Assembly: GCA_004293915.1 (NCBI GenBank)
Contig: RDZG01000070.1
Location: forward strand, 1 to 54,476
Direction of reading: 5' to 3'
From: Bacteroidota bacterium
Lineage (GTDB): Bacteria > Bacteroidota > Bacteroidia > Cytophagales > UBA9547
DNA length: 54,476 nucleotides
In this document: piece by piece, positions 258 through 46,400 of the stretch
Position numbering within the stretch: position 1 is the first letter of the stretch
Layout: every line of letters starts with the position of its first letter
Notes under the pieces: generated by a model
The model's database searches: none
The model's input: only the letters and a program-made list of their open reading frames with translations
Told to the model about the DNA's origin: nothing
Position numbers and translations under genes: made by a program

Positions 258-626
258 TAATTTTTTGGTTGATACGATATTCTAATTTATTGCATAGAAG
301 AACGCCACGAGGTTTATACCTATCAAGATGCCACTTTTTGGATTTCAGATATTACTCAAATCGAGCTTTTGGGTGTAAAAAACATTTCTAAAGAAGTGAA
401 TTTAATTTGCTCAAACCTTATTGATGCTTGTATTTTGGTAAATATTAATGAAAAAATAAAGGAAATTGCAATAAAATTGAAACAAAAATATAGCATAAAA
501 ATTCCTGATGCTTTGATTGCTGCAACAGCAATATATTTACAATTTCCTATATTAACAGCAGATAAAGGGTTTGAGAAAATTGAAGAAGTAGATTTAATTT
601 TGATTGAAATCCAATCTGTAAAATAA
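244..626 (+). pseudogene. vapC: VapC-family PIN-domain toxin, frameshifted
   Basis: An ATG at 244 opens a frame reading MSCNNNFLVDT, which meets a stop at 283. The remainder continues in the next frame from about 277 (ILIYCIEERHEV...) to the stop at 624-626. Restoring one G near 276-277 gives the VapC start VDTDILIY. The PIN-domain acidic residues are visible across both parts: D in VDTD, E in TQIELLG, D in PDALIAATA and D in TADKGF. VapC toxins are Mg2+-dependent RNases, often cutting initiator tRNA. The gene is about 127 codons if repaired. Loss of the antitoxin's N-terminus next door fits relaxed selection; a sequencing error is the alternative. Confidence 0.8.
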
Positions 627-640
627 AATTTAAACTTCAA

Positions 641-666
641 AAAAAAGCTTTATATAGCTTTTTTAA
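641..666 (+). terminator. Rho-independent terminator after vapC remnant
   Basis: A hairpin with arms AAAAAAGCT (641-649) and AGCTTTTTT (656-664) lies 15 bases after the vapC stop and ends in a T-run. The stem is AT-rich and so only moderately strong. Confidence 0.5.
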
Positions 667-703
667 AAAAAAGCCTTGCATTAATTTAAAGCAAGACCTT
701 TTT
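664..703 (-). terminator. Terminator of the LysM gene
   Basis: Read on the minus strand, GGTCTTGC (from 698) and GCAAGGC form a stem with one bulged position and an AT-rich loop, followed by a run of eight T. It lies just beyond the stop of the LysM gene at 717. Confidence 0.6.
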
Positions 704-716
704 TTAAAATCAAAAA

Positions 717-1184
717 TTATAATACTGGAATACGCAAAACCTGACCTGGATAAATTTTATCTACATGTTTCAACATCGGTTTATTGGCTTCAAAAATAGC
801 TTCGTATTTCATCGGATCGCCATAAACAGCTTTCGATATTTTAGAAAGTGTGTCGCCACTTACCACAGTATGGTATTTTGCTTCTGGTTTTGGAGCAGAT
901 ACAATCATGTTGTTATCCACTTTTGCTACACCTTCAACATTTCCTACTGTCAAAGCAATTTTTTCGCTATGTTCTTGCTCTGCCACTTCGCCACCAAGCA
1001 ATACAGTGCTATCGCCAGTAACTTTGATATCTAATTTTTTAAATGGAATGTTCATCAATTGAACATGTTTTACCAATGCAGAAGCTCTTACTTGAGCTTT
1101 GGCTTCGGGTGTTGGTGCTTTTTTTTCATCATCGCCACCAAAAATTTTTTCGCCTGCTGATTTTACAAAATCTAATAGTCCCAT
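717..1184 (-). CDS. lysM: BON and LysM domain protein (Kbp/YgaU family)
   Basis: The 155-residue protein begins MGLLDFVKSAGEKIFG and matches the E. coli YgaU/Kbp architecture nearly end to end. It has an N-terminal amphipathic segment, a BON domain (about 35-95, VTGDSTVLLGGEV...VGNVEGVAKVDN) and a C-terminal LysM domain (about 104-155, YHTVVSGDTLSKISK...KIYPGQVLRIP). E. coli Kbp is a soluble K+-binding protein of about 149 residues. There is no signal peptide, which agrees with a cytoplasmic role. LysM normally binds peptidoglycan, but in this family its role is structural. The gene is monocistronic, with its own terminator. K+ binding here is inferred from the family, not shown by residues I can name. 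Confidence 0.85.
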   Translation of the reverse strand: MGLLDFVKSAGEKIFGGDDEKKAPTPEAKAQVRASALVKHVQLMNIPFKKLDIKVTGDSTVLLGGEVAEQEHSEKIALTVGNVEGVAKVDNNMIVSAPKPEAKYHTVVSGDTLSKISKAVYGDPMKYEAIFEANKPMLKHVDKIYPGQVLRIPVL

Positions 1185-1280
1185 AATGTTGTTTAGTTAA
1201 TTAATGTTATTTTTTGTGAAAGATAAATATCTGTTTTGAATAAATAAACATAAGATTTAAAAATATTTTTTCAAAAAATG

Positions 1281-1310
1281 TTTGAATGTCATATTTATTC
1301 ACTTTATTTG
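1281..1310 (+). promoter_or_regulatory. Promoter of the cold-shock gene
   Basis: A TTTG (-33) at 1281-1284 is separated by 18 bases from TTTATTTG at 1303-1310, a one-mismatch form of the Bacteroidota -7 element TAnnTTTG. The cold-shock ATG follows 19 bases later. Confidence 0.45.
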
Positions 1311-1329
1311 TTAAAATTTAAAATAAATA

Positions 1330-1524
1330 ATGCAAACAGGTAAAGTAAAGTTTTTTAATTCTACCAAAGGTTTTGGTTTTATTAAACCGGATGATTCAAG
1401 TGAAGACATCTTTGTTCACATGTCAGGACTAGTTAGTCCACAAATTCGTGAGAACGACAGCGTAAAATTCAATGTAGAAAGAGGTAAAAAAGGCCTTAAT
1501 GCAGTTAACGTAGAATTAGTATAG
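1330..1524 (+). CDS. Cold-shock protein (CspA family)
   Basis: This 64-residue protein is a single cold-shock domain: MQTGKVKFFN start, RNP1 motif KGFGFI (about 15-20), RNP2 motif DIFVHMSGL (about 27-35) and the terminal motif KKGLNAVNVEL. Such proteins bind single-stranded RNA and DNA and melt RNA secondary structure, at low temperature or constitutively. The length is standard for the family. It is transcribed away from lysM and towards dnaG, with which it shares a bidirectional terminator. A second family member lies at 7160-7351; the two differ enough not to be a recent duplication. Confidence 0.93.
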   Translation: MQTGKVKFFNSTKGFGFIKPDDSSEDIFVHMSGLVSPQIRENDSVKFNVERGKKGLNAVNVELV

Positions 1525-1542
1525 TTTAAACATATACATCGC

Positions 1543-1577
1543 AAAAAAAAGTCGAAAGTAATTTCGACTTTTTTTTT
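1543..1577. terminator. Bidirectional terminator between csp and dnaG
   Basis: Arms AAAAAAAAGTCGAAA and TTTCGACTTTTTTTTT surround a GTAA loop. The stem is flanked by A-run and T-run, so it works in both directions: it ends the cold-shock gene (+) and dnaG (-), whose stop is at 1595. Confidence 0.85.
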
Positions 1578-1594
1578 GTATTAAATCTTCAGAA

Positions 1595-3529
1595 CTACCC
1601 ACTTATTACTATCCCAAGTTCCTTAGCATAAATCTGTAAATATTTTTTTAGTTCGATATTTTCGTCTAATAAAGCATTTATTTCTTCGGTTTCTGCATCG
1701 CTTAATTTATTTAATTTCAATTGATTATCTCTATTTCGCTTTTTGAATTTTTCAAAGTTCAATCTAGCCAACGATTTATTCATCAAAATCATTTTGTCAT
1801 TATCTTTTGGCGTAATATAAATTTGGTATTTATCGTACCACAAATTGCTTAATTCATGTTTTGATGTCAAAATATTGATTAACCGTTCTTCAATAGTTAC
1901 ATCAGGATATTTCATAAAATAATCTAGCGTAGGAAGTTGGTTTTGTGCCAATTCTAGTTTGAAAATTTCAATAATTTTAGCATAAATGGGGTCTTCAAAA
2001 GTAATATTTTGCAAATACGAAAACATAATTTGAATCAAGGTTTGTTCTTCGATTTGCACATCAGCATATTCGAGCAAAATGCGAATGATTTCACGTTCGG
2101 CAATTTCGTTGCTATCTGTACGAGCAAAAACATCCGTAACTATTTTATTTTCAATATCTATATGTAAGGTTTCTTCTAGGTTTTGAGCCTTTTCTTGTTG
2201 TTTTTTTGCTTCGCCAAGTTTTATTTTATTATATTCTGAAACTATTACTTGTTCGTCAATCTCGAGTAATTGGCTGCATTTTCTAAAATATAATGAACGC
2301 TGAATTTCATCTTTTATTTTAGCTATAGAATTTATGATTTCATGTATTACTTCTCCTTTTTTTAGTGGGTCGTTTGCCGAATCTTGCAACAAAACTTCGG
2401 TTTTGAAAGTAATAAAATCTTTTGCATTTTTAGTAAGATATTCTATAAAAGCTGTTGCACCAACTTTGTTTACAAAACTATCGGGGTCATCGCCATCTGG
2501 AAAAACTAATACTTTGATATTCAGTCCACTATCTAATAGCATATCTGTTCCTCTTATGGCAGCTTTTATACCTGCTTTGTCGCCATCATATAGCACTATA
2601 ACATTTTTTGTATATCGAGCTATTAGCTTGATTTGCCCCTCAGTTAGCGATGTTCCCGAACTAGCAACAGCATTTGTTATGCCAGCTTGATAGAGCGAAA
2701 GCACATCCATATACCCCTCCACAAGCAAGCAATTATCTTGATTTCTAATGCTTTGCTTTGCCTGAAAAAGTCCATAAAGCACTTGGTTTTTTACATAAAG
2801 TTCGGTTTCGGGGGAGTTGATGTATTTGGCAGTGCCTTTGTCGCTACCCAAAATTCTACCTGCTAAGGCTATGGTTTTTCCAGTTATATTATGAATTGGA
2901 AACATGACCCGATTGCGAAAAAAATCGAATTTTTTGCCATTTTCTGAAATTTTTATGACTCCAGCTTTAGCCAGCAAATCTTGGTTAAATTGTTTTGTAA
3001 TCGGTTCGTTTAGCAATCCATCCCAAGAATCTAGTGCAAAACCAAGCTCAAATTCTGCAATTGTTTTGTCGTTTAATCCTCGCTCTATAAAATAGCTTTT
3101 CCCAATTGCCATTCCATCTGGATGGCTTAATAAAATATTTTTATAATAATTTTTGGTGTGTTCTAAAATAATAAATAACGAATCTTTTTCGGATTGAGCT
3201 TCTTTTTCTGCATCCGAAAATTCGGTTTTATCATATTGAACTTCTATGGCATATTTTTTTGCAAGGTATTTTAAAGCTTCAACATAAGTAAGTTTATCAA
3301 CTTCCATCACAAACTTTAGGGCATCGCCACCTTTGCCTGTTGAAAAACATTTGAAAATGCCTTTCGATGGCGAAACATAAAAAGAAGGTGTTTTTTCGTT
3401 TGTAAAAGGCGAAAGGGCAGCATAATTTGCACCCCGTTTTTTGAGCGACACAAAATCTCCTACAACTTCCACTATATCAGCGGCTTGCAATATTTGATTG
3501 ATAGAATCTTGTGTGATGCGCATGTACAA
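1595..3529 (-). CDS. dnaG: DNA primase DnaG
   Basis: The 644-residue primase lays RNA primers for chromosome replication, working with the DnaB helicase. Order: N-terminal zinc-ribbon-like domain (about 5-100; SPFTNEKTPSFYVSPSKG), catalytic core with TOPRIM domain (CLLVEGYMD near 270 and VLYDGDKAGIKA near 315), and a C-terminal helicase-interaction region. The usual CHC2 zinc ligands are absent: positions normally Cys and His read S and T in SPFT, and CFST replaces the CxxC pair. I recall this as a trait of Bacteroidota primases. Two starts are close together, ATG at 3529 (MYMRITQ) and ATG at 3523 (MRITQ); the second fits the family better. The first 36 codons recur as a decayed copy at 6009-6117. 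Confidence 0.95.
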   Translation of the reverse strand: MYMRITQDSINQILQAADIVEVVGDFVSLKKRGANYAALSPFTNEKTPSFYVSPSKGIFKCFSTGKGGDALKFVMEVDKLTYVEALKYLAKKYAIEVQYDKTEFSDAEKEAQSEKDSLFIILEHTKNYYKNILLSHPDGMAIGKSYFIERGLNDKTIAEFELGFALDSWDGLLNEPITKQFNQDLLAKAGVIKISENGKKFDFFRNRVMFPIHNITGKTIALAGRILGSDKGTAKYINSPETELYVKNQVLYGLFQAKQSIRNQDNCLLVEGYMDVLSLYQAGITNAVASSGTSLTEGQIKLIARYTKNVIVLYDGDKAGIKAAIRGTDMLLDSGLNIKVLVFPDGDDPDSFVNKVGATAFIEYLTKNAKDFITFKTEVLLQDSANDPLKKGEVIHEIINSIAKIKDEIQRSLYFRKCSQLLEIDEQVIVSEYNKIKLGEAKKQQEKAQNLEETLHIDIENKIVTDVFARTDSNEIAEREIIRILLEYADVQIEEQTLIQIMFSYLQNITFEDPIYAKIIEIFKLELAQNQLPTLDYFMKYPDVTIEERLINILTSKHELSNLWYDKYQIYITPKDNDKMILMNKSLARLNFEKFKKRNRDNQLKLNKLSDAETEEINALLDENIELKKYLQIYAKELGIVISG

Positions 3530-3603
3530 AACTAATCAAAAACAGCTTGAAAACTCAATCTAAATTTAATTTTTCAACCAATTGTGAAACAAAATAAGGA
3601 GCT
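3421..3603. repeat. Left direct repeat flanking inserted T9SS gene; carries a detached oxidoreductase tail
   Basis: These 183 bases match 6009-6191 with 8 mismatches and no gaps. The left copy contains the functional 5' end of dnaG, the dnaG upstream gap, and (3555-3603, minus strand) an orphan tail of the FAD oxidoreductase encoding APYFVSQLVEKLNLD-stop, preceded at once by a stop codon. In the ancestral order the oxidoreductase therefore lay directly upstream of dnaG. About 2.4 kb now separates the two copies. Confidence 0.9.
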
Positions 3604-3664
3604 TAGCTTTGGAAATTATTTAATTTGGCTATATTCTAAATTAAACAACATTTGTTAAATTCCT

Positions 3665-3706
3665 AATTGGATTTGAAGATACAAGTTCAAATCCAATTTT
3701 TTTCTA
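3665..3706 (+). terminator. Orphan plus-strand terminator
   Basis: Perfect 13-base arms AATTGGATTTGAA and TTCAAATCCAATT enclose an 8-base loop and run into seven T. No plus-strand gene precedes it, so it was probably carried in with the inserted segment and belonged to a gene that is not retained. Confidence 0.7.
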
Positions 3707-3716
3707 TTATTTTTTT

Positions 3717-3849
3717 GCCACGAATTCACTAATTTTTAGTGTTTTTTTCGTGCATTCGTGGCAAATATTTAATTAAATTGATTTCATCCTATCATTATTG
3801 CAATGTTTTAAAGTTAAATTTTGTTGTAAATTTCAAAACATAGCCTTTA
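3717..3849. repeat. Palindromic dispersed repeat, complete copy
   Basis: The left part is a long inverted repeat: GCCACGAATTCAC (3717-3729) pairs with GTGCATTCGTGGC (3750-3762) with one mismatch, and an inner ACTAA/TTAGT pair is nested inside. A tail to about 3849 is shared with 1-101. The structure is REP- or MITE-like. A RAYT transposase remnant at 54324-54461 is the kind of enzyme that mobilises such palindromes, but no direct link is shown. Confidence 0.7.
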
Positions 3850-4038
3850 ATTTCAAATATATTATTTTAATAATGTTATAGGTTCATTTACTTATAATCA
3901 CAATTTTGCCCTCATAATCTTGAAAAAACATAGTTACCTTTTTTGATTTTGATTTATAAATAATAGAATTTACTTGTTTTGCAAGTGAATAGAAATAACA
4001 TAAACCAAAAAATAAATAAAAACAGAAAATAACACAAC

Positions 4039-5739
4039 ATGAAATTAAAATTATTATTACTGATATTAGTGTCCTTTAATCTTATTGCACAAACAAATAT
4101 CTTAACTGGAAATGTGTCAGGCAATTGGTCTTTGTCTGGGTCTCCTTATTTAATTCAAGGCAATATACTTATTCCTGATGGTTCAACATTAATAATTGAA
4201 GCAGGAGTAGTTGTTGAATTTCAAGGTAAATTTAAACTGTTTTGTAATGGAACTATTCTTGCAAATGGAAATCCACAACAATCAATATTATTTACTGTTC
4301 CTAACTCAAGTACTTCTATAGGTTGGTTAGGTATTAGATTTGAGGATACTCCGATAACAAATTCTCAATCTATTCTAAAGTATTGTACTTTTCAATATGG
4401 AAGAGCTGATCAACAAAATAATGATTTGGGAGGTGGAATTTATTTTAAAAACTATTCAAATTGTAATATTGAAAATTGTTCATTTTTATATAATTATGCA
4501 TTAAATGGTGGAGGGGCTATTTTGTGTAAAAACTCTTCACCAATAATAAAAAGCTCTACTTTCGATGAAAATTCCTCTGGTAATGGTGGAAATTGTCTTG
4601 AATCAGAAAATTCAACTTCTCTAATTGATGGCAATATCTTTAAAAAAGGCGGAATATATTGTTATAATTCAGATTTAATTATCAAAAATAATTCTTTTAA
4701 AAACAGTAATAGTCAAGGTGGTATTACTTGTTTTGGCGATAATTGGAATGGTGGAAAAATACCTCAATTAATAATTTCTAATAATATTTTTGATAATAAT
4801 GTAAATGAAAATGGGGCAGGTGGAGGTGCTATACTATTACATAATGCTTTAGCAATAATTAAAAATAATATTTTTAAAAATAATTCAACAAAATTTGGAG
4901 GAGGAGCTATTTCATTATTCAGAAATAATAATTTAAACACTTTAATGAACAGTAATATTGTAAATAATTTATTTTATAATAATTTGTCAGGGGGAGTAAC
5001 TACAGGCATAACTGTCGGAGGAGGTGCAATTGTTTGTTTGAATTCTTCTCCAAAGATCACAAACAATACTATTTGTAATAATAATACTACTTTTTTGGGA
5101 GGTGCAATTTTTTGTGATTCAAATTCTGATCCAAATTTTTACAATAACATTATTTTTAACAATACAAAAAATGGTTCTGAAATTGACAATATTTATTTAT
5201 CAGATAATAATAGTGACCCCAATTTTTATTATAATAATTTACAAGGAGGTATAAATGGAATTAATACTAATGGAAATCCATATACAGGTGTTTTTAATAA
5301 TAATTTTAATTTAAACCCAAACTTTGTAGATGTAACTACTGGAAATTATTTACTTTCATCAAATTCCCCATGTATAAATACAGGTAAACCTGACACTACA
5401 GGATTAAATATCCCTACAATAGATTTGGTAAATAATCAAAGAATATTTGAAAATATTATTGATTTAGGCTGTTATGAATCTCAAGAAATTTTATCAGTTG
5501 AAGACGTAAATATCAGTAGCAAATTAACTTTATATCCTAATCCAGTAAAAAATATATTAAATTTTAATACTACAGAAATTATTACAAAAATTGAAATTTA
5601 TAATATTTTAGGAATTTTAATCTATTCAAAGATAATAAAAGATAACTATGTGGATTTAAGCAATATATTAGTCGGTAATTATTTCATTAAACTATATAGT
5701 GAAAATAGCACTCTACATGCTAAATTATATAAAGAATGA
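4039..5739 (+). CDS. Secreted parallel beta-helix protein with T9SS sorting domain
   Basis: A 566-residue exported protein. Signal peptide MKLKLLLLILVSFNLIAQ; then a right-handed parallel beta-helix (about 20-470) with repeated asparagine-rich turns such as NNIFKNNST and GGGAI; an insert typical of these proteins (SPCINTGKPD...DLGCYES, about 450-485); and a C-terminal type A T9SS sorting domain (about 498-566, LYPNPVKNILNF...). It should be exported by Sec, cross the outer membrane by T9SS, and be anchored or released. Beta-helix proteins of this kind often act on or bind polysaccharides, but no catalytic residues are recognisable. It is the only gene of a segment inserted between duplicated dnaG/oxidoreductase boundary sequence. 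Confidence 0.85.
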   Translation: MKLKLLLLILVSFNLIAQTNILTGNVSGNWSLSGSPYLIQGNILIPDGSTLIIEAGVVVEFQGKFKLFCNGTILANGNPQQSILFTVPNSSTSIGWLGIRFEDTPITNSQSILKYCTFQYGRADQQNNDLGGGIYFKNYSNCNIENCSFLYNYALNGGGAILCKNSSPIIKSSTFDENSSGNGGNCLESENSTSLIDGNIFKKGGIYCYNSDLIIKNNSFKNSNSQGGITCFGDNWNGGKIPQLIISNNIFDNNVNENGAGGGAILLHNALAIIKNNIFKNNSTKFGGGAISLFRNNNLNTLMNSNIVNNLFYNNLSGGVTTGITVGGGAIVCLNSSPKITNNTICNNNTTFLGGAIFCDSNSDPNFYNNIIFNNTKNGSEIDNIYLSDNNSDPNFYYNNLQGGINGINTNGNPYTGVFNNNFNLNPNFVDVTTGNYLLSSNSPCINTGKPDTTGLNIPTIDLVNNQRIFENIIDLGCYESQEILSVEDVNISSKLTLYPNPVKNILNFNTTEIITKIEIYNILGILIYSKIIKDNYVDLSNILVGNYFIKLYSENSTLHAKLYKE

Positions 5740-6142
5740 AATCTGTCAAAAGTTTTTTTGTAAAATAAAATGGTGTTATAATGTAATAATATTTTGTGAT
5801 ATCAATTGTTATAGTAAAAAATGTTATTCGTGGTTTATATACACATAGTTTATGTTTGGCAAAATCAAAAAAATAAAGTTGAAAAATTTACTTTTTTGAT
5901 TATAAAACATAATTTACAAGATTACACCTAAGCCAAAATCAAAACCAATTTCTTTATAAATCAAAATGTATTTTTCACTCAACTAGTCTTTCTGCTCAGA
6001 TATAGATACATAATTTGCCCCACGTTTTTTGAGCGAAACAAAATATCATACAACTTCCACTATATCAGCGGTTTGCAATATTTGATTGATAGAATCTTGT
6101 GCGATGCGCATGTACAAAACTAATCAAAAACAGCTTGATAAC
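5740..6142. other. Intergenic region with AT-rich spacer and dnaG-head copy
   Basis: No gene is seen here. The first 270 bases are AT-rich spacer without a clear terminator hairpin. From 6009 the right direct repeat begins; it contains a decayed copy of the first 36 codons of dnaG (minus strand) with an internal TGA, followed by the true tail of the oxidoreductase. Confidence 0.65.
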
Positions 6143-6191
6143 TCAATCTAAATTTAATTTTTCAACCAATTGTGAAACAAAATAAGGAGCT
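6009..6191. repeat. Right direct repeat; decayed dnaG head plus intact oxidoreductase tail
   Basis: This is the second copy of the 183-bp repeat at 3421-3603. The dnaG portion (minus strand, 6117 down to 6009) has seven differences from functional dnaG. Three are synonymous (GTG/GTT, CGG/CGT, GGT/GGG), one creates a stop (GGA to TGA) and three change residues. The oxidoreductase tail (6143-6191) is identical to the orphan copy. The synonymous changes suggest that the two copies diverged as coding alleles before this one decayed. Confidence 0.9.
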
Positions 6192-7099
6192 AAACTAACT
6201 GCTTTGGAGCCAAAGCCATTGATTATAAAATTGTTTTTTTGGGTTTCATGTTCAAAAACAAAAGGTCTACGGTCTTTGGTTGCAGGTCTGATTCCGAATT
6301 TAATGTCCTTAATTTGATATGGACTTTTTAAAAATGTTTTAAGTTTTTCTTCGAGTTCGGCAATGCCATTTTGTGTGATTTTGGGTTCTAAATCGTGATG
6401 ATGATAGGTTGAGCCAACTCGCTGATAATGATTTGTTTGTAAAATAAAAACCGATTTATTTACAATATAGTTTGTGTTATAATCTTCGATTTCGACATCT
6501 AAAATTTCGCCTTTATTTAATTGCCAAGCCAAATCTTTCCAAAGTGGATTTTGTGCAGCGTGCGCTCCTTCGCAAAATATGTTTATTTCTCCAATATGAT
6601 TTTTTGGATCAAATAATTCGGACTTTATATTATCTTTAAATATTTGCTTTGATTTTTCTAAAAACAGATTAATATCAACCCAACCAGAATGATTTATTTT
6701 TAATCCGCCATTCGGACAATCAATATTTGTTGTATCAGATTTTGATATAATTTCAATCCAATTTTTGTATTCAATTTCTGCCGATTTTCCCATCCAATAG
6801 TTTTGTTCTGCCAAATCGTGGAAAGGTTTAAAAATGGGTGTTTTATGTAAAAAATAAATACCATAATCAGCCTCTATTTCTGAATAGAGTTGGAGCAAAA
6901 ACGGGAAAATTTCGTCTGCCAACCACGTTTTAACCATTCTTTTTCCTGTTATAGGATTAAAAATACCAGCCGCAACTTTTGACGAACTTGCCAAATCGGC
7001 TTCAAAAATAGTGATTTGAACATTCTTTTTTTTGGCTAACAGAAATGCCAAAACACTTCCTACTAATCCAAAGCCAATAATGTTTATTTTTTTTGTCAT
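6143..7099 (-). CDS. FAD-dependent amine oxidoreductase (DAO family)
   Basis: About 318 residues from the ATG at 7099 (MTKKINIIGFGLVGS). A longer frame from 7126 adds nine residues without family character. The N-terminus has the Rossmann FAD motif GFGLVGS (GxGxxG) followed about 20 residues later by the acidic IFEAD. SSKVAAGIFNPITGKRMVKTW and the C-terminal FGIRPATKDRRPFV...NGFGSKAVSLAP are typical of D-amino-acid-oxidase/glycine-oxidase-like enzymes, and also resemble the oxidase half of MnmC. The substrate is not evident. It is soluble, with no signal peptide. Its 3' end is duplicated at 3555-3603, showing it once abutted dnaG. Confidence 0.85.
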   Translation of the reverse strand: MTKKINIIGFGLVGSVLAFLLAKKKNVQITIFEADLASSSKVAAGIFNPITGKRMVKTWLADEIFPFLLQLYSEIEADYGIYFLHKTPIFKPFHDLAEQNYWMGKSAEIEYKNWIEIISKSDTTNIDCPNGGLKINHSGWVDINLFLEKSKQIFKDNIKSELFDPKNHIGEINIFCEGAHAAQNPLWKDLAWQLNKGEILDVEIEDYNTNYIVNKSVFILQTNHYQRVGSTYHHHDLEPKITQNGIAELEEKLKTFLKSPYQIKDIKFGIRPATKDRRPFVFEHETQKNNFIINGFGSKAVSLAPYFVSQLVEKLNLD

Positions 7100-7159
7100 T
7101 CTAGCCACGAATGTACAAAAAAACATAAATCACGTGTGTAAAATTTTATACACAAAAAA

Positions 7160-7351
7160 TTAAACTTTTTTTACATTTACTGCATTCACTCCTTTTTTTC
7201 CTTCTTTCAACTCGAAAGTAACTTTGTCGTTTTGTTTGATTTTATCTATCAAACCTGTTGCATGTACAAAATATTCTTTCTGACCTTCGTCTTCTTTAAC
7301 AAATCCATAGCCTTTTGTTTCATTGAAAAACTTAATTATTCCAGTACTCAT
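7160..7351 (-). CDS. Cold-shock protein (CspA family)
   Basis: A 63-residue cold-shock domain from the ATG at 7351 (MSTGIIKFFNETKGYGFV); an in-frame ATG two codons upstream would add MN. RNP1 reads KGYGFV and RNP2 reads EYFVHATGL, where many members have DIFVH. It ends in KKGVNAVNVKKV. It probably binds single-stranded RNA. It lies 52 bases downstream of the oxidoreductase start region on the same strand, and whether it has its own promoter is unclear. Confidence 0.92.
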   Translation of the reverse strand: MSTGIIKFFNETKGYGFVKEDEGQKEYFVHATGLIDKIKQNDKVTFELKEGKKGVNAVNVKKV

Positions 7352-7423
7352 GTTCAATCTAATTGTTTATTATAATTTAAATTTAGATTAAAAAAATCAG
7401 ATATGCAAAAAAAAAATACTTTT

Positions 7424-9007
7424 TTATGCTTTATAAATATCTAGTTTGAGCGAAATATCTTTCAAATTTGTTTCCAATTCTTTTGTGTTGGATATAATTC
7501 TTTCAATTACATCTTTTTTTTCTTCTTCAGTAACTAACAAATTCAATTCCAATAAGTTACCTAATCCAAGAATTCTGCAAATAGGAGCTCTCAAAACATG
7601 TGCATGCATAAAAGCAAATTCAGAAAGTTGCATATTTTTTTCTACTAACTTTGCTGTTCGGGCATCTATTCTGGCTTCAAGACCTTTGTTAATTGCTTCA
7701 ATTTCGTTGCGTTGTGCTTTAATAGTTTGTTCTGCAATGATATGTTGGTTGGAAACATAAGCCAACGACACAAGCTCTGCTGCTGAGCGTAAAAAATTTA
7801 TGTCTTCTTGTTTCCATTCTTTTGCATCAATTTGGTTTTCGCACGAAAGTACACCTTTTAACACTCCATAAACATAAATTGGAATATCAATATTTGAAAT
7901 AATATTGTTTGGAATAAAATAATTGTTTAAAAATATTTTCGATTCTTCACTTTCAAAAACATTATTGTTTACAAGCATCTCTTCGGTTTCGAGCAGTTTA
8001 TAATATTCGTGATAATTTTCAATCTCGAAAAAAAGTCCGTTTTCGTGAGTTTTATCTGTTTTTATAAATAAATCTTTACATGTGATTGTTGTTTTGGTTT
8101 CGTTATAAAACCAAACACTAGTTCTTGAACAATTTATTGCATTGCAAATTAGTTGGGTAAATTCTTCAACAGATTCTTGTAAGTTGCCTAGTTTTATAGA
8201 GTCTAGTTTGGCTAGTTGCGTGATAATTTTAGTGTAATTTATGATTTTTTGATTTATGATAGAGAGTTCATTTTTTCGTTCTTCTAATGTTTCATTTTGA
8301 TTTATAATGGTTTCGAGCAAAACTGTCATTTCTTCTTGCTTTTGCTCTTCGTTTTGAAGAATTATGGCTAATGAGCTGTTTTTTTCATTAAGATTAATAT
8401 TTAATTCGCTTAGCTTTTTGTCTGAATGTTCAATTATTTTTTTGTAGGCATAAATCAATCCATAAGAAATAGAAATTACTAATAAATAAGAATTTATCAT
8501 TAAAATATCATCCCAAAAAGTGAAACTTGAAAACAAAAACACATTTTGATTGTATGGACCGAAAAAATATAGGTATTGGGCAATTGTTACCATTATCCAA
8601 AAAGTAATATATTGCCAAGTTGTGCAAACAATTGCTATTAATGGAATTAAAAACAAAAATTGAAATTGGTTGCTATATATACCTCCAGTATCATGAATTT
8701 TTAAATGAATTAAAATGCTTGATATTCCGAGCGAAAGATTTACTAAAAGGTTTAAATAGTTGTATTTTTTAATAAATAATAAACCTAAAAGTACTGCAAT
8801 GCATCCAAAAAAATCTAGTGCTGCAATTTTATATTGTCTGTCAATCAAATATAAAATCGCCATTTCCAAATATGAAATACTTGCTAAAATTGCTGCCAAT
8901 ATCGACATTTGATAACGCAACAAATTTGCCGAATCGAATCCAAAATCTCGATTTGGCAAACAAAATATTTGAATTTCGTTTTGTACAGTGTTAAGAAACT
9001 TTTTCAT
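7424..9007 (-). CDS. Membrane sensor with GAF and DHp domains but no ATPase domain
   Basis: The 527-residue protein starts with about six membrane helices (35-190), then a coiled coil (about 190-265), a GAF domain (about 275-430; SRTSVWFYNE, VLSCENQIDAKEW), a second helix, and a DHp-type segment (about 461-527). The DHp contains FAFMHAHVLRAP, the divergent Bacteroidota phospho-acceptor motif with candidate His near 470. It stops right after the second DHp helix, with no N, G1 or G2 boxes of a HATPase domain. The stop is followed by an AT-rich spacer without coding similarity, so this looks like the natural end. It may be a phosphotransfer or dimerisation partner for a kinase elsewhere. Confidence 0.8.
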   Translation of the reverse strand: MKKFLNTVQNEIQIFCLPNRDFGFDSANLLRYQMSILAAILASISYLEMAILYLIDRQYKIAALDFFGCIAVLLGLLFIKKYNYLNLLVNLSLGISSILIHLKIHDTGGIYSNQFQFLFLIPLIAIVCTTWQYITFWIMVTIAQYLYFFGPYNQNVFLFSSFTFWDDILMINSYLLVISISYGLIYAYKKIIEHSDKKLSELNINLNEKNSSLAIILQNEEQKQEEMTVLLETIINQNETLEERKNELSIINQKIINYTKIITQLAKLDSIKLGNLQESVEEFTQLICNAINCSRTSVWFYNETKTTITCKDLFIKTDKTHENGLFFEIENYHEYYKLLETEEMLVNNNVFESEESKIFLNNYFIPNNIISNIDIPIYVYGVLKGVLSCENQIDAKEWKQEDINFLRSAAELVSLAYVSNQHIIAEQTIKAQRNEIEAINKGLEARIDARTAKLVEKNMQLSEFAFMHAHVLRAPICRILGLGNLLELNLLVTEEEKKDVIERIISNTKELETNLKDISLKLDIYKA

Positions 9008-9104
9008 ATTTTGGATAAAAATACAAAGTATATTTGTTTTAATATTGCTTGTTACCTAAAAATATGTAAAAAAGTTCGTTTTTTGCATTTTAAAATTCTT
9101 AAAA

Positions 9105-9986
9105 ATGATATTATTAGATGGAAAAAAACTTTCAGAAGAAATTTTAAATGAAATTTCTCAAGAAGTTTTAGAAAGAAAGAATAAAAATAAAAAAATACCA
9201 CATTTGGCTGCAATTTTGGTCGGAAATGATGGTGCTAGCGAAACTTATGTGGCAAGTAAGGTGAAAAATTGCGAAAAAGTTGGATTCGATTCTACTCTGA
9301 TTCGGTATGAATCATCGGTTTCTGAATCTGAATTGTTGCAAAAAATATATGAACTTAATTTGTCAAAAGATATTGATGGATTTATAGTACAATTGCCATT
9401 GCCAAAACATATTGACGAAAAAAAAATAACCGAAGCGATATTGCCAAACAAAGATGTTGATGGTTTTCATCCCATGAATGTTGGGTATTTGGCTTTGGGA
9501 ATTCCTGCTTTTGTATCTGCAACGCCAAACGGTGTGATGGAAATGTTGAAAAGATATAATATTGAAACCGAAGGTAAGAATTGTGTAGTTTTAGGTCGAA
9601 GCAATATTGTTGGTTCGCCAATGGCAATGTTGATGTCGAAAAACACTAATCCCGGAAATGCCACAGTTACCATTTGCCATAGCAAAACCCAAAATTTAAA
9701 AGAAATTACATCAAAAGCAGATATTTTAATTGTTGCCATTGGCAAGCCAGAATTTATTTCGGCTGATATGGTTAAGGCAGGTGCTGTTGTGGTAGATGTT
9801 GGCATTCACAGAATAGCAGACGAAACCAAAAAATCGGGTTTTAGATTGGTTGGCGATGTTAAATTTGACGAAGTAGCATCAAAATCTAGCTATATAACTC
9901 CTGTGCCAGGTGGTGTTGGATTGATGACCATTTGTTCGCTCTTGCAAAATACACTAAAAGCTGTTAAAAATAAGTATGATGTCTAA
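9105..9986 (+). CDS. folD: Bifunctional methylenetetrahydrofolate dehydrogenase/cyclohydrolase FolD
   Basis: At 293 residues it is of normal FolD length. FolD interconverts 5,10-methylene-, methenyl- and 10-formyl-tetrahydrofolate with NADP+. Visible motifs are the active-site [13 protein letters not shown] (Tyr and Lys near 45-51), [23 protein letters not shown], the NADP-site [17 protein letters not shown] (about 160-176) and [11 protein letters not shown] near the C-terminus. Start ATG at 9105 gives the standard [13 protein letters not shown]. It overlaps queE by 11 bases, so the two are translationally coupled. A possible -7 element TATATTTG lies at 9029-9036. Confidence 0.95.
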
Positions 9987-43475: not shown

Positions 43476-46400
43476 TTAATGTGAAATAATAAGTTTTTTA
43501 TACGTTTTATTGCCCAATGATTCAATTTGAATTATGTATAATCCATTTGGCAGATTAAATATATCTATTTGATTATCAGCTGTTTCTAAAACTTTGTAAC
43601 CTAAACTATTTATCAATCTAATATTTAAAATTGTGTAGTTTTTTGTTGAAACTGTAATTTTATCATTTGCTGGATTTGGGTTTATGATAATATAATCTTC
43701 ATTATTTTCAAATATACTTTGTGTTATGCAATTTATACTTGTAATCATACTAGCCGAACACTGATTTGGATTTGTTCCAATTACTGTATAAACACCAGTA
43801 ATCGAAGTAGTTAGAATAGGTTGAGTTGAGTTTGTATGTCTCCAAAGATACGTATTTGCACCCGAAACGGTAAGCGAAGCAATATTGTTTTCGCAAGAAT
43901 TTGTATTTCCAGCAATGGTTAAAACTGGCGTAGCAAACACCAAAACTTGAATCGGTTTAATATCAACAAAACCCACGCCTGTATTGGTAGTAACTTGTTT
44001 TCTGATATAATACGTACCTGCAACAGAAACCAAATTTGGAGCAGTTACACTAATGGTTGCACCCGCATTTTGCCAATAGGTAACCGTACCCACCAAGTTT
44101 TTGGTATCAACAAAAGAAGTAGTTAAATCAGCCGTCAATCCCGAGCAAATCGAGATTGGACCAGTAACCGACAAAGTTGGATAGGGAGGACAATTTACAC
44201 TCATAATCGTTGTAATAATAGTAGTCGAACACTGATTTTGGTTTGTGCCAATTACTGTATAAACACCAGTAATCGAAGTAGTTAGAATAGGTTGAGTTGA
44301 GTTTGTAGGTCTCCAAAGATAGGAACTTGCACCCGAAATCGTAAGCGATGCTAAGTTGTTATCGCAAGAATTTGTATTTCCAGCAACGGTTAAAACAGGC
44401 GTTGCAAACACCAAAACTTGAATAGGTTTAATATCTACAAAACCTACACCTGTATTGGTAGTAACTTGTTTTCTGATATAATATGTTCCCGCAACAGAAA
44501 CCAAATTTGGAGCAGTAACGCTAATGGTTGCCCCTGCATTTTGCCAATAAGTTACAGTACCCACCAAGTTTTTGGTATCAACAAACGAAGTAGTTAAATC
44601 GGCTGTTAATCCTGAGCAAATGGAGATTGGACCTGTAACCGACAAAGTTGGATAGGGAGGACAATTTACACTTGTTATCGTTGTAATCATACTAGCCGAA
44701 CACTGATTTGGATTTGTGCCAATTACTGTATAAACACCAGTAATCGAAGTAGTTAGAATAGGTTGAGTTGAGTTTGTAGGTCTCCAAAGATACGTACTTG
44801 CACCCGAAACGGTAAGCGAAGCAATACTGTTATCGCAAGAATTTGTATTTCCAGCAACAGTTAAAACAGGAGTTGCAAACACCAAAACTTGAATTGGTTT
44901 AATATCTACAAAACCTACACCTGTATTGGTAGTAACTTGTTTTCTGATATAATATGTTCCCGCAACAGAAACCATATTAGGAGCAGTAACGCTAATGGTT
45001 GCACCCGCATTTTGCCAATAAGTAACGGTACCGACTAAGTTTTTAGTATCAACAAACGAAGTAGTTAAATCGGCTGTTAATCCCGAGCAAATGGAGATTG
45101 GACCTGTAACCGACAACGTAGGATACGGAGGACAATTTACACTTGTTATCGTTGTAATCATACTAGCCGAACACTGATTTGGATTTGTGCCAATTACTGT
45201 ATAAACACCTGTAATCGAAGTAGTTAGAATAGGTTGAGTTGAGTTTGTAGGTCTCCAAAGATAGGCAATTGCACCCGAAACGGTAAGGGAAGCAATACTG
45301 TTATCGCAAGAATTTGTATTTCCTGTGAGTGTTAAAACAGGACTATTTTTTATAATCACATCTATTGGTTTTATGTCCATAAATCCTACACCTGAAGTTG
45401 TAACTTGTTTTCTGATATAATACGTACCCGCAAGAGAAACCAAATTTGGAGCAGTTACACTGATAGTTGCAGCAGCATTTTGCCAATAAGTAACAGTACC
45501 AACTAAGTTTTTGGTATCAACAAATGCTGTAGTTAAGTTTGCCGTTAGCCCAGAGCAAATAGTAATAGGACTCGTAACAGATAATACTGGAGGTATCAAC
45601 GTTGAACTTGTCGCTACTCTGGAATAAAAAGGTTGATAAACTCTGATTTCTTTTATAGGTGTATTTTTTGCACCTTTTGCATCTAGTTCTAAAATATGAT
45701 TGGCATTTGAAATTCCTTGTGCAAGTGTAGAAACTACTTCTATTGCTGTACCAGGAGCGGTAGATGGGATAAATGTATCTGTGTAAAATGCTTTTGCCTG
45801 CCAAGTTATTGTAAATCCCGCTGCTAATGGCAATGCCGAATAGGGGCCATTTCCAAACCAAAACTGTGCAGGATCTATCACAAATTGCCCAGAATTTGAA
45901 GTAAAAGTGCTTCCCGATGTCGCTAATCCTGAAGTAATATTTACACTTGCAGTTCCATCGCCACCCGTTCTTGTACCAGTAACGCTATAAGTAAAATTGC
46001 TTCCTGCATTGTAAGTCAAAAATCGTAATGTCCAATCTTGTGCTCTTAGTAGGGGAGATGTATTCGGGTTGAATTTCATAATCGCACCTTTTTGCCAAGG
46101 CCAATCATAAGAGTTATGTCTAAAAAGTGTATCATAAGTATCATTTGGTCGTGTAAACATCACAGAACCAGCAATAGAAGATGGTCTTTTTGAATCAATA
46201 AGTACAGATGCACTGTCCATATTTGCAACTGGACTTTCGTGCACAATATCTATTTTGTTTCCGTTAAAAGGCAATGTTATTTTCCCATTAATTGCAAAAA
46301 TATCTTTTCCAACAACATAACTTTTCATCAATCCAAATGTATCAGCTGTTATCCATTTATTTGGTCTATAATGTAAATAAGGCATATATAATTTCGACAT

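Follow-up and report, generated by a model that had tools for sequence, protein, structure and literature searches.

The oxidoreductase-dnaG junction in the window studied here (the entire contig C74; 54,476 bases) is interrupted by a piece of DNA with a T9SS gene and is present, in direct orientation, on both sides of it. Very probably this is an insertion with long target duplication, in which the T9SS gene was placed at the junction and both neighbours were left whole. The junction looks like a clean insertion with a target duplication of ∼190 bp, and comparable scars, seen where this genome and that of a related species were sampled, look like the product of recurring transposase-free gene addition.

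The direct repeat measures 188 bp (3421-3608 and 6009-6196) with 95% identity. Over the first 183 bp, the two copies differ by 8 mismatches with no gaps, confirming what the sequence-only reading had reported across this junction, and the repeat extends to 3613 and 6208 with 2 additional mismatches and a 7-nt gap. Across the entire genome (3.85 Mb in 156 contigs), a search listed these two copies only, the second with E = 1.1e-80, a value that far excludes a chance match. Our recount also agreed with the earlier one for the dnaG part, which holds seven of the eight mismatches: three are synonymous, one creates a stop codon and three change an amino acid. Both target genes are intact, dnaG being open via copy 1 and the oxidoreductase gene via copy 2, and the stop codon lies in the unused dnaG fragment. 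As the live dnaG starts in copy 1 and the live oxidoreductase gene ends in copy 2, the junction must have been unbroken before the insertion, and no part of it was lost. The coordinates of these features are collected in Table 1, together with the loci discussed below.

Table 1. Features of the dnaG junction and of the second locus in the window, followed by target genes and cargo at loci elsewhere in this genome (G000) and in the congener G001
Feature	Start	End	Strand	Description
dnaG	1595	3529	-	DNA primase, 644 aa; open over full length
Target copy 1	3421	3613	.	Live dnaG 5′ end, intergenic gap and dead oxidoreductase 3′ fragment; 7-nt gap near right edge
Complete insert	3614	6008	.	2.4 kb between the target copies, including the MITE
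MITE	3627	3845	.	219 bp, ends GGCTAT..ATAGCC; 8-bp target duplication TTTAATTT at 3619-3626 and 3846-3853
Cargo gene	4039	5739	+	566-aa beta-helix protein with T9SS C-terminal sorting tail; Pfam Beta_helix and T9SS tail both over cut-off
Target copy 2	6009	6208	.	Dead dnaG 5′ fragment with stop codon, intergenic gap and live oxidoreductase 3′ end
Oxidoreductase gene	6143	7126	-	FAD-dependent oxidoreductase, DAO family, 327 aa; open over full length
Second locus, target gene	17450	18499	+	349-aa gene, 3′ end duplicated; glycosyltransferase-like by eye
Second locus, live target copy	18404	18498	.	95 bp; two copies genome-wide
Second locus, cargo	18653	19684	+	YhcG/DUF1016 PD-(D/E)XK nuclease; PADLOC candidate PDC-S02
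Second locus, dead target copy	19871	19965	.	93% identical
L144				187-aa gene end flanks Uma2 nuclease (PDC-S03)
L116				T9SS-type gene end flanks protein of PD-(D/E)XK 'transposase' family
L137 and L119				Inserts carry further T9SS proteins
L141				End of a gene that we take to be bshA-like flanks LuxR-type regulator and second gene
L211				Gene end (presumed threonylcarbamoyl-AMP synthase) flanks helix-turn-helix gene and others
L207				Gene end flanks DUF6934 protein
L128				Gene end flanks several genes; one scanned, no match
G001 L168				Gene end (presumably metH-like) flanks AAA ATPase (matches PD-T4-4_A) and gene without match
G001 L233				Fic protein; repeat ends 14 bases before gene's end
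G001 L171				Two loci: Zeta-toxin-like gene; 114-aa gene

The GC content of the insert is 20-26%, compared with 31-33% in its neighbours. Its beta-helix T9SS gene was upheld by the Pfam matches, whereas the 'orphan terminator' and the palindrome, which had been described as separate items, proved to be parts of one MITE: the terminator-like hairpin starts at ∼3667 and the palindrome arms lie at 3706-3732 and 3747-3773. With terminal inverted repeats and a short fixed target duplication, this MITE is a separate insertion nested in the insert, and it would have arrived independently of the cargo; we take it to resemble IS1595-type elements. About 40 copies of the family were listed (genome searches gave 42 and 43 matches, own and partial ones included, with 40 candidates scored). 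Near-complete ends were present in 24 rows; 10 of these have an exact duplication of at least 8 bp at their flanks and 8 have none, allowing an end shift of up to 3 bases and with rows L056 and L088 representing one copy. The contig itself starts within a partial copy of the 219-bp MITE (1-104).

We found no source gene for the T9SS cargo in its own genome or among the matches listed from 390 genomes of the order. Its own genome gave two other matches, both confined to the tail end of the gene. The search across the order matched the protein in 213 of the 390 genomes (at most three candidates were scored in nearly all of them), and all of the matches listed were partial, the longest covering ∼390 of the 566 residues at about 30% identity. 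A Pfam scan of the cargo gene gave no transposase match, and we rejected insertion of a transposon or IS element on this ground and because the duplication length differs between loci.

The arrangement is present twice in the window, where both the dnaG junction and the second locus have a gene flanked by a long direct duplication of an otherwise single-copy target. A first survey of 40 stretches plus the window (0.80 Mb) likewise found that short direct repeats, often gene ends, enclose genes at many places. For the systematic scan, repeat pairs in both orientations had to be 50-500 bp long, ≥80% identical, present in ≤3 copies in the sample and separated by 0.4-20 kb; the rule also demanded that one or more 70-aa ORFs lie between the copies and excluded paralogous coding pairs. 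In this genome (1.148 Mb, about 30%) it accepted 23 direct pairs and 0 inverted ones, and in G001 (0.476 Mb) 9 direct pairs and 0 inverted ones, giving 32 direct and 0 inverted pairs for the two together. No direct pair was accepted in the 0.696 Mb sampled from three more distant genomes: G006 (0.296 Mb) and G018 (0.200 Mb) gave 0 direct and 0 inverted pairs, and G013 (0.200 Mb) gave 0 direct and 1 inverted. With gaps of up to 20 kb allowed, no accepted pair was spaced 9-20 kb. Among the pairs rejected as multi-copy, the direct ones numbered 5 in G000, 18 in G001 and 4 in G006, and the inverted ones 1 in G000 and 2 in G001; one pair in G000 and one in G001 had no gene inside, and four in G001 were both coding.

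The 23 pairs of G000 were reduced to 16 loci by merging those at argC-mazG (2; gene names assumed), at the T9SS locus L116 (2) and at L143 (3), and by dropping L206, where two pairs come from repeated nucleotidyltransferase-like genes, and L214, where the single pair is a repeated gene head close to the end of a contig. One of these, L129, was then rejected as a target duplication, the genome-wide search having identified it as a dispersed repeat, which left 15. At L129 (13215-14788), an 89-bp non-coding repeat surrounds a DUF2806 gene and has 17 genome matches, including both flanks and also C145 and C66. In 10 of the 15 loci, two of them in the window, the repeat lies on the end of an open gene. 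In G001, the 9 pairs gave 6 loci, of which L155 and L172 share border sequence and were dropped, leaving 4. The L115 locus (AbiEii, AAA ATPase), at 80% in an earlier listing, failed the pair rule and was not counted.

The resulting strict set comprises 14 loci, 10 in G000 and 4 in G001. For 14 direct against 0 inverted loci, P = 1.2e-4; at the strict-set rate the controls should hold 6.0 loci (P(0) = 0.0025). Both values assume independent loci and were computed post-filtering. The stretches came from long or MITE-bearing contigs and are non-random, and the window was selected for its finding. Genome-wide copy number covered the two window repeats (2 of the 14 strict loci), L129 and the MITE. 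Given the dispersal of L129 and the shared borders of L155 and L172, the wide pair counts are inflated; the P values for the wider set used 22 and 16 loci, counted before the removal of these three.

Nine of the 14 strict loci could be grouped by cargo, six as nuclease-, toxin- or defence-like and three as T9SS. Among the 30 cargo proteins from loci other than the dnaG junction, some of which were later dropped, 24 had a Pfam match at E ≤0.001 and 6 had none, and PADLOC matched 8 (one weakly) of the 10 cargo proteins submitted, the other 2 being without a match. A type IIG restriction-methylase is present at L143, whose repeat is non-coding and which is outside the strict set. There, three copies of a 54-80 bp repeat divide two cargo blocks (478-9568), one with a RhuM protein and the other with the restriction-methylase, a Schlafen/AlbA-domain protein and a WYL regulator; the two blocks may stem from successive insertions at one site. 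At L119 (6748-15056) there is a displaced fragment of the genes that we take to be argC and mazG, with ∼330 bp missing mid-way and with parts that are 88% and 99% identical to the live copy.

No empty site for the insert was found at the dnaG-oxidoreductase pair of the congeners G001 and G002; the two genes are adjacent in neither, lying on different contigs with other neighbours. Empty sites were also not found at L141 (bshA-like) and L139 (penicillin-binding-protein), where the genes are present in both congeners and the neighbours within ∼1.5 kb on each side differ. In G002, a probable ATPase (by eye, from a GRRRVGKT motif; L239, 3-1436) adjoins the penicillin-binding-protein gene, and the G000 counterpart has a different insert. 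In this genus, conserved genes seem to change neighbours quickly.

Several other explanations, which are not mutually exclusive, were weighed against the insertion. The sequence-only reading had suggested Campbell-type or one-sided homologous recombination that carried in the cargo plus the donor's junction, one copy being a foreign allele. Such an exchange yields the same final layout and would fit with copies that differ at 8 of 183 bases, but the two dnaG heads proved to be sisters when the proposed tree was run. They group together with support 95/89 among 13 relatives (102 nt, 15 rows; the relatives are the 13 of 29 loci where the head motif was found), with branch lengths of 0 for the live and 0.077 for the dead copy, and are 93.1% identical to each other and ≤75.5% identical to any of the 13 relatives. 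Because both congeners lack the junction, a donor would need to be conspecific or an unsampled sister, and how cargo and junction were initially paired in that donor is left unexplained. The synonymous changes, which had been taken as a sign of a foreign allele, are weak as an argument: with substitution types kept, at least three synonymous changes out of seven have P = 0.135, which is not significant. Some positions do speak for a foreign allele. The dead copy has the base of both congeners at codon 30 of dnaG (counted from the ATG), that of congener L002 at codon 14 and that of congener L003 at codon 25, and the dead fragment at L141 retains an Asn present in both congeners; the live copy has the base of both congeners at codon 23 and that of L003 at codons 14 and 31. 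From the bases matching the dead copy and the L141 Asn, it follows that the live copies may have changed too, or that the copies differed at the start. Altogether we consider a foreign allele improbable. Campbell-type exchange is nevertheless possible for the spread of the insert between strains.

The rejection of a plain tandem duplication stands, since each copy serves a different intact gene, although not for the reason originally given, which was again the synonymous changes (P = 0.135). Nearby direct repeats would be expected had the region from the oxidoreductase tail to dnaG been duplicated in tandem over a greater length, then undergone deletion or decay and only later received the T9SS gene between the copies; of five comparisons at the edges of the insert, one was borderline, with 6 of 200 shuffles scoring as high. 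The five together (6, 9, 39, 49 and 50 of 200) gave no convincing dnaG or oxidoreductase remnant in the insert, and each other locus would need two independent rare events that put the cargo exactly between the copies every time, making this course very improbable. We give even less credence to a self-mobile element in the cargo, for example a PD-(D/E)XK enzyme, as the creator of the duplications. Some cargo does consist of PD-(D/E)XK nucleases, one in a family annotated as transposase (PF12784), but this was the only one of 31 cargo proteins to match a transposase family in Pfam, the T9SS gene did not, and neither a common end sequence nor a fixed duplication length was seen. An assembly artefact that joined two strain alleles of a single locus in one contig might come to mind for a genome in 156 contigs that was judged from the contigs alone. 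It is hardly credible here: with its stop codon, the dnaG part of copy 2 would not serve as a working allele of a gene that is essential, identity between the copies ranges from 80 to 99% over the loci examined, and the pattern is present in two genomes with the accepted pairs direct only.

For the insertion with long target duplication, we propose that a piece of DNA with the T9SS gene entered the oxidoreductase-dnaG junction and that ∼190 bp of the junction were thereby copied to both sides. In the joining step, a strand would switch template and copy the cargo, and would then return to the chromosome tens to hundreds of bases behind its exit, copying that stretch again. A switch with such a backward return gives a clean duplication of variable length without fixed ends; duplications across the loci range from 54 to 263 bp (the lower end being set by the cut-off), and no common end motif was apparent by eye at the loci. 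In our judgement, template switching has slightly less than an even chance of being the joining step. The same product would come from a staggered break that is filled in and then joined without Ku; we judge this route somewhat less likely than template switching, if still worth considering. Ku-dependent end joining at a staggered break was rejected, with Ku (PF02735) absent from all 6 genomes searched; among 14 control genomes it was found in 1 (Bacillus subtilis). Error-prone copying, of which clustered changes near the junctions might be a sign, was also considered; 8 changes are too few. Duplications at gene ends would persist since both neighbours stay intact, and the flanking repeats might then permit transfer of the cassette between strains, or its loss, via ordinary homologous recombination.

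The original description of insertion with long target duplication is reportedly that of Nobusato et al. 2000, Gene 259:99. A related process, homology-facilitated illegitimate recombination, need not duplicate the target. It integrates incoming DNA without a transposase, as here, but with homology at one end of that DNA (PMC3240628). Reports on Helicobacter pylori use the term 'insertion with long target duplication' for genes located between long, variable direct target duplications (PMC1643837, PMC3031569, PMC4978471), frequently linked to restriction-modification genes (PMC1643837). The loci described here share this structure and, at L143, the cargo of a type IIG restriction-methylase. 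The link to restriction-modification systems is frequent and no requirement, and the cargo at the dnaG junction is instead a T9SS beta-helix protein. The Helicobacter pylori type was reportedly found by comparing two strains, whereas ours was inferred without an empty-site strain; the cargo here is also broader (T9SS protein, YhcG, Uma2, Fic, AAA), and there are several loci per megabase, in another phylum. The differences thus lie in the range of cargo, the density and the lineage. Transposed genes in Arabidopsis (Woodhouse et al. 2010, PMC2869330) resemble our loci in being single genes between direct repeats that match the target and are mostly genic. They differ in that the organism is a plant, its authors prefer circle formation and re-insertion by homology, and some parent genes are identifiable there, whereas no source gene was found here. 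A literature search by title and abstract opening, with most subscription papers outside its coverage, showed, among the entries listed, no report of this insertion type in Bacteroidota.

It is still not well explained how genes that lack their own mobile element get into bacterial chromosomes, and this genome offers the scar of one such route, common enough for counting, dating and comparison. Its cargo reaches beyond restriction-modification systems, and from the flanking repeats one would predict that simple recombination can remove or exchange each cassette. We suggest, tentatively and with more doubt than conviction, that the genus has a Ku-independent, transposase-free route that repeatedly installs accessory genes at gene ends, with ∼1 detectable scar in every 100 kb, and that this route is one of the chief ways in which genes are gained and pass between strains there. 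If so, it would supply nucleases, toxin-like and defence genes and secreted T9SS proteins, with duplications of tens to hundreds of bases.

Elsewhere in the window, one ORF contains four tandem copies of a 471-bp unit (43733-45591), 75-94% alike to the first. A scan for Bacteroidota-type promoter motifs near dnaG gave two full motif matches.
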